Shown here in pieces: positions 31,390-38,033 of a DNA stretch of 38,033 nt (the stretch's first letter is position 1; each line of letters opens with the position of its first letter). Source of the DNA: an uncultured Bacteroidota bacterium (GTDB lineage: Bacteria; Bacteroidota; Rhodothermia; Rhodothermales; UBA10348). The DNA lies in assembly GCA_937877085.1 (NCBI GenBank), contig CALEEY010000332.1:1-38033 (forward strand). Direction: 5' to 3'. The translations under genes and the position numbers were made by a program. The notes beneath the pieces were generated by a model. The model was given only the letters and a program-made list of their open reading frames with translations, did not search any database and was not told the origin of the DNA.

Positions 31390-32025
31390 TTAAGTCGTTT
31401 TAGTCGGCACCCACGTGGGTTCTTCGACCCCAAATTCGTGATTAATCCACCGTGCAGCCGTAAAAAGGGCATCTGAAAGCCGATTCAAATAAATTAAACA
31501 AGCCGAGTTTATGGACTCCGTTTCGGACAGGGTAATAACCCGTCTTTCGGCCCGTCGACAAACAGTTCGGGCCAAATGAAGCGCGGAGGAGGCAGCGTGA
31601 CCGCCAGGTAGTATAAATGCCTTCAAAGGCTCAATAGACTCGTCGAAAGCATCAATTTCCTCTTCCAGACGCGTAATGGCTATGACTGGAAAGCGGGTAA
31701 TCTTAACTTTAGTGTCCATCGGTGTAGCCAAATCTGCACCCAAGTCAAACAGTTCACTTTGAATGCGATCCAGCCACACATCCATCAGTTGGGTAGTTGT
31801 TTTGGGCGTTGGCGCCATCTCAATGGGCGCCCCTTCGCTAGTAATTTCAGCGCCAAAGAAATGGCCCGGGGTGGGGCGGGGAAGGGCGCTTCGAACCATT
31901 CCTAGTACCGAGTTTAGCTCGTCTACGGTACCGTAGGCCTCAATTCGAATATGGTCTTTAGAGACGCGCGGGCCGCCAAAAAGCCCAGTCGTACCGTCGT
32001 CCCCAGTGCGGGTATAAATTTTCAT
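31390..32025 (-). CDS. Corrinoid adenosyltransferase, PduO type (ATP:cob(I)alamin adenosyltransferase)
   Basis: A 211-residue enzyme that makes adenosylcobalamin. PduO-type signatures are intact: TRTGDDGTTGLFGG (residues 5-18, ATP binding), EAYGTVDELNS, the SELFDLGADLATP helix and LPGGHAASSALHLARTVCRRAERR. An insert of about 25-30 residues between the first and second helices (RPTPGHFFGAEITSEGAPIE onward) is longer than usual. The ATG overlaps the TAA of the upstream ABC ATPase gene by one base (TAATG), so the two are translationally coupled, which ties that transporter to cobalamin or a related corrinoid. Confidence 0.92.
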   Translation of the reverse strand: MKIYTRTGDDGTTGLFGGPRVSKDHIRIEAYGTVDELNSVLGMVRSALPRPTPGHFFGAEITSEGAPIEMAPTPKTTTQLMDVWLDRIQSELFDLGADLATPMDTKVKITRFPVIAITRLEEEIDAFDESIEPLKAFILPGGHAASSALHLARTVCRRAERRVITLSETESINSACLIYLNRLSDALFTAARWINHEFGVEEPTWVPTKTT

Positions 32026-32801
32026 TAGGTCAGAGGAGTTTCATAATGGATGCGTATCGATCCTTCCGAGGTGTGATGAACTTGGGCATTCATGCGAAAA
32101 ACCCGGGCCAACAGTTCAGCGTCCAGTACCCCTTGAGGGGATCCGTCCGCAGAAATTTGCCCACCCGAAAAAACAATCAGGTGATCGCAAAACCGAGCGG
32201 CCAATTCTAAATCATGGAAAGCTCCTACGACGGTTATGCCATTATCTACCAACGAACGAACGTGCTGTAGGAATTCGTATTGATGATGCACATCTAAATA
32301 GGTCGTAGGTTCATCCAGAAGTAAAATATCGGCTTCTTGGACCAGGGCCTGCGCTAAAAACACCCGCTGCTGCTCTCCACCCGACAAGGATGCGTAGGAT
32401 CGGGAGGAAAAACCGGACATATCTACCAATCGCAGGGCGTCCCTGACCAACGAAAAGTCGGACTGATCATACGAAGACAGTAAATTTTTGTGAGGTGATC
32501 TCCCCAGTAACACGAGTTCCTCGACTTTGAAATCAAATGGAATCATGTGAGACTGACGCACGAAGGCCAGTCGCGTAGCCATGGCCCGTGGAGACCACGC
32601 ACTAACCGGCTTGTTTTCCAGCAAAAGGGATCCCGAAAAAGGAATCAGGCCAGCCATGGCCCGCAACAAGGTCGTTTTTCCGCTGCCGTTTGGGCCTAGA
32701 ATACCCGTAAAGGAACCCCTTCCAATCTGAAAGGAGACGTCCCTAATAATGGGTTCACCAGAAAGAGCAACTTGAAGGCGAGATGCAGTGATTACGGGCA
32801 T
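32025..32801 (-). CDS. ABC transporter ATP-binding protein, BtuD/FecE/HmuV type
   Basis: A 258-residue ABC ATPase of the type II importer group (iron, heme, B12). Walker A is GPNGSGKTT (36-44), Q-loop VRQ (81-83), signature LSGGEQQRV (139-147), Walker B ILLLDEPTTYLD (159-170) and H-loop AFHDLE (H196). It overlaps the adenosyltransferase gene, so vitamin B12 import (BtuD) is the best guess, though siderophore import is possible. The BtuC-like permease and BtuF-like binding protein are not next to it; immediately upstream is a divergent lipoprotein gene. I see no cobalamin riboswitch in the short upstream region. ATG at 32801. Confidence 0.88.
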   Translation of the reverse strand: MPVITASRLQVALSGEPIIRDVSFQIGRGSFTGILGPNGSGKTTLLRAMAGLIPFSGSLLLENKPVSAWSPRAMATRLAFVRQSHMIPFDFKVEELVLLGRSPHKNLLSSYDQSDFSLVRDALRLVDMSGFSSRSYASLSGGEQQRVFLAQALVQEADILLLDEPTTYLDVHHQYEFLQHVRSLVDNGITVVGAFHDLELAARFCDHLIVFSGGQISADGSPQGVLDAELLARVFRMNAQVHHTSEGSIRIHYETPLT

Positions 32802-35061: not shown

Positions 35062-35415
35062 ATGTTAGAAACTATTTACGAATATTGTCGCGCAAAAGCC
35101 TGTGTGGAAGAAGGGTTTCCGTTTGGCGAAGAAACGCTGGTATTTAAAGTATCAGGTAAAATATTCGTACTCCTGTCCTTGGACGCTACTCCATGGCAAA
35201 TAAACTTGAAATGTAATCCGCTGTGGGCCATTGAGTTGCGTGAAAATTATGAATCGATTCGGCCGGGATATCACATGAATAAAAACCATTGGAACACTGC
35301 GGTGTTAGATGGATCGATTCCGACTTCGTTGATATTCGAGATGATTGACCACTCCTATGAATTAGTGGTCGCTGGATTAACAAAAGCCCAAAGAAAGGCC
35401 GTTCTAAACCTATGA
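35062..35415 (+). CDS. MmcQ/YjbR family DNA-binding-fold protein
   Basis: A 117-residue small protein of the MmcQ/YjbR family. CVEEGFPFGEETLVFKVSGK IFVLLSLD, a run of two conserved segments, then INLKCNPLWAIELRENYESI and NKNHWNTAVLDGSIP show the double-wing-like core usual in this family. Function is uncertain; a DNA-binding role is suggested by structure in the family. The TGA overlaps the ATG of the RluA-type gene (ATGA), so the two are coupled. ATG at 35062, without a Shine-Dalgarno sequence. Confidence 0.88.
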   Translation: MLETIYEYCRAKACVEEGFPFGEETLVFKVSGKIFVLLSLDATPWQINLKCNPLWAIELRENYESIRPGYHMNKNHWNTAVLDGSIPTSLIFEMIDHSYELVVAGLTKAQRKAVLNL

Positions 35416-36101
35416 ATCTTCCCATTGTATTTGTTGACAATCACGTATTGGTGGTTGAAAAGCCCGCTGGGATGCTTTCGCAGGAGGATCGGACGAAGGA
35501 CGAGGACGTTCTGAGCGTCGCCAAGCAATGGGTGAAAGTTCAATTCGAAAAGCCAGGGGACGTGTTCTTAGGATTGGTTCACCGGTTGGATAGGCCCGCT
35601 TCTGGATTAATGGTCATTGCCCGTACTTCGAAAGCCGCTGCCCGTCTAAGCGAGCAGTTCAAATTAAGAACCGTCCAGAAAACGTATTTGGCTCTGGTAG
35701 ACGGTCACCCGGTGAAAGGAGACGTCTACGAGGACTGGCTCAAAAAATGGGATGAAAATGTTCGCATTGTAGAACCCAATAAACAGGGGGCAAAACTGGC
35801 GAAATTAGTTATAGAAGAGGTCCATACATTTGGCACAGCGGCTTTGGTGCGCATTGAGTTATCGACAGGCCGCGCACATCAAATTAGGGTTCAATTAGCA
35901 GGTCGGGGATTTCCCATTGTAGGAGACTTTAGATACGGATCGAGAACTAGACTCGACGGAAAAAACCTAGCTCTTCATGCGGGTAGATTGGCCTTTGACC
36001 ATCCGACCAAGAAAGAATTGATGGTATTTACCAGCGAACTCCCCCGATCTTGGCCGCCCGAAGTCCGCGAAAAGGCATCTCAAATACTGCGAAAGATCTA
36101 G
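35412..36101 (+). CDS. RluA family pseudouridine synthase
   Basis: A 229-residue enzyme that isomerises uridine to pseudouridine in rRNA or tRNA. The catalytic Asp lies in LVHRLDRPASGLMVIARTSK (D60); the later YLALVDGHP, ALVRIELSTGRAHQIRVQLA and GDFRYGS segments are standard. It lacks an N-terminal S4 domain, like the short RluA/RluC-related and TruC types, so the target position cannot be assigned. It overlaps the MmcQ gene by four bases. ATG at 35412. Confidence 0.93.
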   Translation: MNLPIVFVDNHVLVVEKPAGMLSQEDRTKDEDVLSVAKQWVKVQFEKPGDVFLGLVHRLDRPASGLMVIARTSKAAARLSEQFKLRTVQKTYLALVDGHPVKGDVYEDWLKKWDENVRIVEPNKQGAKLAKLVIEEVHTFGTAALVRIELSTGRAHQIRVQLAGRGFPIVGDFRYGSRTRLDGKNLALHAGRLAFDHPTKKELMVFTSELPRSWPPEVREKASQILRKI

Positions 36102-36320
36102 TAAGCCATCCTCGGAAGCCTTTTCGAGTGGTTTTGGTAGTGATTTCTGGCCTCCACGTAGCGATGCTACCCTCTGAAGAGATGGGGTATTCGCAATTTT
36201 TGGATGTCCGTTGGTGAAAAGTGTGAGAAATGATGTCGCCTTCATCAAGTCTGAAAACAGCGATGGCACGTCTTCGAATAGATTGGCAGATACCAAACCA
36301 AGTGTTCGCCCGTCCGATTG
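36102..36320. other. Intergenic stretch, nothing assignable
   Basis: About 220 bases between the RluA-type gene and the ferrochelatase-like gene. Open frames on both strands continue through parts of it, but none resembles a known protein, and I see no strong hairpin with a T-run and no consensus promoter. Confidence 0.4.
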
Positions 36321-37610
36321 ATGTCCCTGAAAGAAACCACAAGCATTCCAAGCCCTCAAGTTCGACCCTTCGGAAGTCGTTCTTTTTCCGCCGATCCTAT
36401 AAATGTAGGACGTGGGGATAAGGTGGGTGTGGTTCTTTTGTCGCCCGGCGCACCTGAGACAGAGGACGAAGTTTTTGGCTACCTGCACAAGCATTTCATG
36501 CTCCCAAGTGGCCCGCAGAGGGGCTTCCGCTTTTGGATTTCAAATCTTAAGTCCCGAGTAAAAGCGCGTCTCGCGATTGAACGAGTATTGACTGAATATC
36601 GGGCCATAGGAGGCGGTCATTCGATCAATCGATTTAATCGCGAACAGGCTGCCGACCTAAAACGTCGCCTAAAAGCAAGTGTGGTCATTCCAGATGGCGT
36701 TCAAATTGGTACCTACCTAGCGTCTCCCTTTGGAAGTCCTTCGATGCTGGACGCTGCTCAACAAATGCTGAAGGATGGCATTACCCATGTTGTTTTGCTT
36801 CCGTTGTTTCCACAGTTTGCCATGGATACGACCGGTCGGGCTCTCGCTTACTGGGAGAAAATGGTCTCGGAAACGAAAATAGCGGGCCTACCAACCGTTG
36901 CGATCTGGGAATTTGCCATTCGCGAGTCTTTTATTGAGGCCATGAACGAGCGCATTGAACAAGCTGTTCAGCGCTTCCCTCGTTCCGCCCGACCTGAAGT
37001 TGCCATTTTATTTACAGCCACTGGCAAAGGATTAAATCCTATAGATGACAAAGGCGACCCATATTGCTGTTTGGTCCATCACTCGGTCGAGCAATTAATG
37101 GCTCTCCAAGGGAAAGATCGGGCCCATTTTTTGTCGTTTGTCCCACAACGTAGCTGGCGAAATGGGGTTGGGCCCAGCCAGAAGGATACCATTGATGCGA
37201 TGGTGGCGTCTGGGCATCGAGCGGTGGTTGTGGTCCCCGTCGATCACGTTTCTGAACAATTTGATTCCGCCTATTTTTTAGAGGTGGATCTTCGAAAATT
37301 AGCCGAAGCGAAAGGTATTCATCACTACCACGTGGCATCGGGATTAAACTGCCATCCATTATTTATGGAAGGGTTAACGGACCTCGTGATCGAATCCATT
37401 GTGCCTTCGAGTCGCGTATCCGAAACCGACGCCTGTTTGCAAACGTGTCCTCGCCCATCGTCGAATGCGAGCGATGGACGAGGAGGCCGAGCTTGCTCGT
37501 TGTGCCCGTATGCGGAAAAGAATGTGGAAGACTCAGTAGAGCGACCATCGCGCAGGCATGTTCATGCAGCAACACCCGGACGCAGGCCTGCCGCTCAAAA
37601 GAAGCCGTAA
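36321..37610 (+). CDS. Divergent ferrochelatase (HemH)-like protein with a four-cysteine tail
   Basis: A protein of 429 residues from ATG at 36321. The ferrochelatase fold is clear: VGVVLLSPGAPETEDEVFGYL, IGGGHSINRFNREQAADLKR, THVVLLPLFPQFAMDTTGRAL, GDPY, VVVVPVDHVSEQFDSAYF and GLNCHPLFMEGLTDLV. Two active-site positions differ. The SAHxxP motif with the catalytic His reads TATGKG (T234 region), and the Glu of the xxHxExLYE motif aligns with an Asp. The tail from about residue 370 has C372, C376, C392 and C395 (C-X3-C-X15-C-X2-C), which could hold an iron-sulfur cluster, followed by a basic, disordered end. Metal insertion into a porphyrin is possible but doubtful; a regulatory or other tetrapyrrole role is an alternative. 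No other heme genes are nearby. Confidence 0.8.
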   Translation: MSLKETTSIPSPQVRPFGSRSFSADPINVGRGDKVGVVLLSPGAPETEDEVFGYLHKHFMLPSGPQRGFRFWISNLKSRVKARLAIERVLTEYRAIGGGHSINRFNREQAADLKRRLKASVVIPDGVQIGTYLASPFGSPSMLDAAQQMLKDGITHVVLLPLFPQFAMDTTGRALAYWEKMVSETKIAGLPTVAIWEFAIRESFIEAMNERIEQAVQRFPRSARPEVAILFTATGKGLNPIDDKGDPYCCLVHHSVEQLMALQGKDRAHFLSFVPQRSWRNGVGPSQKDTIDAMVASGHRAVVVVPVDHVSEQFDSAYFLEVDLRKLAEAKGIHHYHVASGLNCHPLFMEGLTDLVIESIVPSSRVSETDACLQTCPRPSSNASDGRGGRACSLCPYAEKNVEDSVERPSRRHVHAATPGRRPAAQKKP

Positions 37611-37709: not shown

Positions 37710-38033
37710 CTACGTTGCGGAGGCCGATTCCTCAGAAGCGAAAAATGTATTGAGTTCAGCCAGCGTTTCGGGCGACGTTTCTATATCTCGACTGATTTTC
37801 CCTTCTGCCAGTAGCGTAATACGGCCGCAAACTTCCATCACGTGACCGAGGTCGTGACTGGATATGATCATCGTAGTGTGCTCGACTCGAGCTGCTCGGA
37901 TCAAAAGGTCTTTCAACCGAATCTGCGATGGCGGGTCAAGGTTGGCAAACGGTTCGTCCAGGATGACCAATTCGGGCGTGGGGAAAAGAGCCGCGAGGAT
38001 ACCCACTTTTTTGGCGTTTCCCGTCGATAGGTC
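37710..38033 (-). CDS. ABC transporter ATP-binding protein, C-terminal part (runs off the window)
   Basis: The frame is open to the right edge, giving the last 107 residues. The visible part begins DLSTGNAKKVGILAALF, an LSxG signature variant with Asn in place of Gln or Glu. It continues with Walker B LVILDEPFANLDPPS and the H-loop MIISSHDLGHV, then a short C-terminal region ending FFASEESASAT. This resembles the ATPase subunit of ABC-2 type exporters or gliding/drug-type systems. Walker A and any permease lie outside the window, so substrate and direction cannot be judged. Confidence 0.85.
   Translation of the reverse strand, partial: DLSTGNAKKVGILAALFPTPELVILDEPFANLDPPSQIRLKDLLIRAARVEHTTMIISSHDLGHVMEVCGRITLLAEGKISRDIETSPETLAELNTFFASEESASAT

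Follow-up and report, generated by a model that had tools for sequence, protein, structure and literature searches.

What does a ferrochelatase homologue do when its catalytic histidine is gone and the heme pathway upstream of it is missing from the genome? The question is raised by an open reading frame of 429 amino acids with an ATG start (positions 36321-37610, plus strand) in the 38,033-nucleotide stretch of DNA analysed here, called the window throughout, which comes from a 90%-complete metagenome-assembled genome (MAG; G000); all genome data in this analysis are MAGs. The best reading, at a probability of about 0.75, is that of a pseudo-ferrochelatase that does not chelate, has been re-specialised and has a promoter of its own. 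Profile, tree and fold model place the protein in the ferrochelatase family PF00762 (E 1.1e-49, residues 34-358), and within it in the clade named EQFD below. It scores 140.5 bits against the NCBIfam hemH equivalog, above the cutoff of 124.6, and its AlphaFold model (mean pLDDT 79) has the ferrochelatase fold, with a TM-score of 0.80 to human ferrochelatase (1hrk) when normalised to that target. The sequence-only reading of a HemH homologue that keeps the fold motifs and the GDPY motif (G245-Y248, 37053-37064, plus strand, by alignment) is borne out by these results. Identity as one of the class II chelatases CbiX, CbiK or SirB was rejected, as a fold search with the model matched ferrochelatase far better (E 9e-24) than SirB (E 1e-6) or CbiK (E 1e-5), and a search for viral relatives found none. 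A profile search of the 90%-complete MAG returned this single PF00762 protein; a second canonical hemH was looked for there and not found.

The window protein shares with the HemH/PpfC/CpfC enzymes of PF00762 the fold, the family profile, GDPY and a Rhodothermales-type Cys tail, but differs from them at the positions of human H263, H341, E343, N75, R115, R164, Y191, Q302, W310 and F337, and its genome lacks the upstream heme pathway. Of what marks a functional ferrochelatase, H263, the H341/E343 network and the porphyrin-pocket residues N75, R115, R164, W310 and F337 are absent. As was noticed from the sequence, the SAHxxP segment (SAHSLP in human) reads TATGKG and the catalytic His is gone: alignment and codon comparison set Thr234 (codon ACT, 37020-37022, plus strand) at H263. 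The sister genome G003 has AAC (Asn) at this codon and the relative G002 has CAC (His); since the His is missing from the sister MAG too, and through a different codon, a sequencing error in the window contig was rejected. The human helix SDHIETLYELD reads SEQFDSAYFLE in the window protein, so that the Asp for Glu noted earlier is E343 to D315, accompanied by changes that had gone unlisted, H341 to Q313 and D340 to E312. In a published review (PMC9133952), every studied H263 variant is inactive, proton abstraction is assigned to a network of hydrogen bonds among H263, H341 and E343, and the change E343D is said to disturb a step that follows chelation. To judge from its residues, the window protein is very probably unable to insert iron.

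These losses belong to a clade and not to one gene. By alignment and tree across relatives from 60 genomes, the window protein lies in a single clade (SH-aLRT 100) of 16 genomes in which EQFD replaces DHxE, all within the window's uncultured Rhodothermales family, of which the collection holds 27 genomes. The aligned stretch H309-V-S-E312-Q313-F314-D315 (37245-37265, plus strand) covers the human F337, D340, H341 and E343 positions, and its EQFD is fixed in 16/16. Beyond the acidic helix, where the whole clade has D340 to E, H341 to Q and E343 to D, the pocket is altered at N75 (V; S in the window), M76 (P), R115 (A or L), R164 (P), Y191 (F), S195 (A), Q302 (V), W310 (variable) and F337 (H, Y or Q), the window protein having S, A, P, G and H at N75, R115, R164, W310 and F337. 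The comparison set of 25 canonical Rhodothermales HemH is near-invariant at most of the mapped positions; at human R164-Y165, for example, aligned with P136-F137 of the window protein (36726-36731, plus strand), Pro in 16/16 of the clade stands against Arg in 25/25 canonical sequences. The pocket lip (human L92, L98, V305, W310 and P266) is variable or replaced. Nineteen columns are fixed both in the clade and in canonical HemH, each group in a different state, and the new clade-fixed set comprises P42, P136, F163, V274, E312, Q313 and D315, with V41 and H309 nearly fixed. The active-site losses other than H263 are common to all 16 genomes. The catalytic His itself is kept, within AAHG, in 14/16, and these members may retain some activity; it is absent only from the window protein and that of G003. 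The loss of the His was only the final stage of an active-site loss that runs through the clade. The proposal of a re-purposed or lineage-specific variant accordingly holds in that this is a lineage-specific, non-canonical HemH, and fails in treating the Cys tail as its special feature.

The named copies of the clade are known from MAGs only, whose isolate names suggest the Caspian Sea, San Francisco Bay and Delaware Bay as sources. Independent degenerate HemH occur in other Rhodothermales families as well (L063, L065, L067 (AAFG); L039, L061 (AEH); L068, L064, L066), some in HemB-less genomes and some in genomes that also have a normal HemH. G034, which is 97% complete and has no HemB, encodes an otherwise canonical HemH (L026) that reads SAQGTP, Gln having replaced His; this loss may be recent and independent.

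The pathway that would supply such an enzyme is missing from most of the clade. HemB, HemC, HemE (by the URO-D profile) and HemY (counted over its cutoff) were surveyed in 31 genomes, in which they occur together or vanish together, two HemB-less genomes having a weak URO-D match only. All four are lacking in 13/16 EQFD clade genomes, and no match to HemB, HemC or HemE and no HemY over the cutoff was found in the window's genome and its relatives with EQFD as their only HemH, among them G017 (two contigs, 96% complete) and G002 (100% complete). Absence from a MAG is never proof; the agreement of four genes across many genomes is strong evidence. Cytochrome oxidase subunit COX1 is present in 31/31 genomes and heme A synthase CtaA in 30/31, the exception being the 62%-complete G026, and heme is therefore used. 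With the pathway genes absent and the heme-copper oxidases and heme A synthase kept, the 13 EQFD genomes look, by gene content, like heme auxotrophs. Across the 60 genomes, all 32 that are HemB-positive have a HemH with H263 and E343, and 26 of the 28 that are HemB-negative do not (exceptions G044, 83% complete, and G047), an association with a Fisher probability of 5e-15, uncorrected for relatedness. What was found has the marks of a pseudo-ferrochelatase in a heme auxotroph, of the type known from C. elegans, and relatives up to 100% complete agree.

The role of the protein is nevertheless not tied to auxotrophy, since three clade genomes (G015, G019 and G022) keep the EQFD protein alongside HemB and another HemH with H263 and E343. 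A separate HemH class (L042-L046), with SAHGTP and EQSETLAELD, occurs in G014, G015, G019, G022 and G045 and in the first four lies near hemB/hemE/hemY; the arrangement suggests a substitute cluster of heme genes, perhaps an acquired one. Elsewhere in the window (31390-32801, minus strand) a cobalamin adenosyltransferase gene adjoins one for a BtuD/HmuV-like ABC ATPase, and this pair in a genome without HemB and HemC suggests that corrinoid import is relied on.

The position of the gene speaks to its origin. Upstream lies the conserved rluA-type pseudouridine synthase gene (35412-36101, plus strand), a marker of the ancestral hemH locus, and downstream the conserved convergent ABC ATPase gene (37710-38033, minus strand), cut by the window end, whose partner permease in relatives is DUF5687; the order is rluA, the hemH-like gene and, facing it, ABC ATPase, DUF5687 permease and RNase R. 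Other families also have rluA beside a Cys-tailed hemH (L012, L017, L028, L034), and because canonical copies share this synteny the window gene goes back to the ancestral hemH. Its neighbours give no functional link to heme, and inferring function from operon context was rejected, as rluA, the ABC transporter and RNase R are old synteny. The locus lacks a hemH in G006, G010, G014 and G021, each of which has a canonical or other HemH elsewhere, and in the auxotrophs G018 and G027 it is intact apart from the missing gene, which is therefore not required for heme auxotrophy; G001 was left out of these calls as its contig ends within the ATPase gene. A 97-amino-acid gene with no Pfam family lies between rluA and the hemH-like or ABC ATPase gene (L055, 5930-6220), and genes of this type are conserved in several families.

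Between rluA and the hemH-like gene stands a 51-bp element (36212-36262, plus strand), a TGAA-N22-TTCA dyad followed by a CCTGAAAACAGG-like block, which is found at constant spacing at 16/16 EQFD genes. A matrix built from it gives its members scores of 47-64. In 2.9 Mb of fetched sequence, which takes in the window, the loci of canonical hemH and 1.2 Mb from G017, no other site scores above 14. These members also served to train the matrix, and they score 35-60 when left out one at a time. Matching sites lie in L047-L062 (for example L060, 5527-5577, minus strand). About 20 bp 3' of the TGAAAAC block, TAGATTGG (36279-36286, plus strand) resembles TAnnTTTG, the -7 box of Bacteroidota, and on account of this box the element is read as a putative gene-specific promoter/operator, possibly an operator for some regulator. 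Other identities were rejected: a regulon, as no second full copy occurs in 1.2 Mb (43%) of G017; a known RNA, as Rfam gave no match at gathering score and weak ones at chance level only, and folding yields just a weak 5-pair helix; and, by eye, a short leader ORF, as several copies have in-frame stops.

Is such a gene still at work, or is it a dying relic, an enzyme decaying after pathway loss? The relic has something to commend it. The window protein is 75% identical to that of G003, against 84-92% for the neighbours, and so evolves faster; active-site residues have been lost stepwise; G018 and G027 have deleted the gene from the same locus; and HemH copies of other auxotrophs degrade too. 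Against decay, the ORF is full-length in 16/16 clade members at identities to the window protein down to about 42%, and the other 14 members have 88 invariant columns in common, of which 81 are kept and 7 changed in the window protein (6 changed in G003). Between the window's genome and G003, pN is low at 0.159 and pS, at 0.755, is saturated, so that an exact dN/dS is not obtainable. The gene is under purifying selection. The new residues are fixed, not scattered, and three genomes keep the gene beside another HemH and HemB. Purifying selection, the 19 refixed columns and the element present at every clade gene argue together against a dying relic, which is improbable, and selection for another function is likely.

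A second alternative would have the protein remain a ferrochelatase of salvage, putting iron into imported porphyrin by means of a different catalytic residue. Precedent exists in Haemophilus influenzae, likewise a heme auxotroph that keeps a ferrochelatase homologue, whose lone HemH reportedly catalyses a reversible insertion of iron into protoporphyrin IX (PMC6550540); GDPY is kept here, as is the AAHG His in most of the clade. The H. influenzae enzyme is active, however, whereas the window protein lacks H263, H341, E343 and the porphyrin anchors needed for iron insertion, and EQFD proteins also persist where another HemH has H263 and E343. Another His in the active site, the finding named beforehand as able to overturn the sequence-only reading, does exist, as His309 lies in the old pocket, aligned with human F337 at its back; it is no substitute for H263. 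It was rejected as a replacement because His-keeping relatives, most of the clade, have it as well, and because only 13/16 members have His there (2 Tyr, 1 Gln); no new conserved His takes the place of H263. Salvage is accordingly quite unlikely. Weakest, and very unlikely, is a chelatase or dechelatase re-purposed for another metal or tetrapyrrole through the new E-Q-D-H set, for although E312, Q313 and D315 are fixed and H309 nearly fixed within the old active site, and the class II chelatases SirB and CbiK use other metals and rings on the same fold, another tetrapyrrole pathway is not expected without HemB and HemC and the ring-holding lip residues are variable.

For the re-specialised pseudo-ferrochelatase, the following course is envisaged. 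Its positional ancestor is the Rhodothermales hemH at the rluA locus; heme synthesis would have been lost in the family, leaving a Cys-tailed ferrochelatase behind; the porphyrin-contacting and proton-abstracting residues were exchanged for the clade-fixed set, and in the window lineage H263 went as well; ferrochelatase fold and tail Cys remain, with expression probably from the gene's own conserved promoter/operator. What the protein does can be addressed only tentatively. The leading guess, at less than even odds, is a part in trafficking or sensing, with imported heme or a tetrapyrrole derived from it as the ligand. That the propionate anchor R115 and the pocket lip are lost or variable speaks against porphyrin binding of the usual kind and weakens this guess; a role in contacts between proteins, or a ligand other than porphyrin, has about the same probability. 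A more specific and doubtful proposal is that EQFD proteins form a new regulated class of pseudo-ferrochelatase in which the old pocket, perhaps with the tail Cys, would sense or carry imported heme under an activator-dependent promoter.

The tail, C372-x3-C376-x15-C392-x2-C395 (37434-37505, plus strand), has exactly the spacing first given for it, and C376, C392 and C395 occur in 15/16 of the clade. Contrary to what had been supposed, it does not set the protein apart. Alignment finds C-terminal Cys in canonical Rhodothermales HemH too, from which the tail is, by its sequence, inherited, and cluster motifs at the C-terminus are listed for Rhodothermus marinus and Salinibacter ruber (PMC8529089); an Fe-S tail was on these grounds rejected as a novelty. 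Those ferrochelatases, too, have a Cys-rich tail and come from the same bacterial order, but in S. ruber the catalytic His has not been lost, and the window's spacings of 3, 15 and 2 fall outside the published [2Fe-2S] motif CX(1,11)CX(1,11)C. C344 (in GLNCHPLF, 37350-37352, plus strand), invariant in 13 aligned clade sequences, is a possible fourth ligand, and together with the tail Cys it could hold zinc or a cluster through four Cys.

HmuS, a de-chelatase of Bacteroidota, is a CobN-like protein and not a member of PF00762. It likewise concerns heme-dependent bacteria that handle imported heme (PMC12583661). A related precedent is the pseudo-ferrochelatase of C. elegans, also ferrochelatase-like, without the catalytic His and in a heme auxotroph (PMC9133952, PMC8529089), but that case is eukaryotic and independent, whereas the window protein is one of a bacterial clade whose members have a new residue set in common and an upstream element of their own. 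Homologues lacking the His are in themselves known, 14 such sequences having been discarded in an earlier survey, 11 of them duplicates (PMC8529089). Pseudo-ferrochelatases are not new; what appears to be new is a bacterial clade of them, under separate regulation, in heme auxotrophs.

The implications extend beyond a single gene. One bacterial family shows the fate of the last heme enzyme after pathway loss, and with an active site gone and the protein kept, refixed and separately regulated, it offers a testable conversion of enzyme to pseudoenzyme. Because this orphan scores above the HemH equivalog cutoff, annotation and pathway scores will falsely credit such genomes with a ferrochelatase. 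Finally, candidate heme auxotrophs are added, which may aid the cultivation of these uncultured bacteria.
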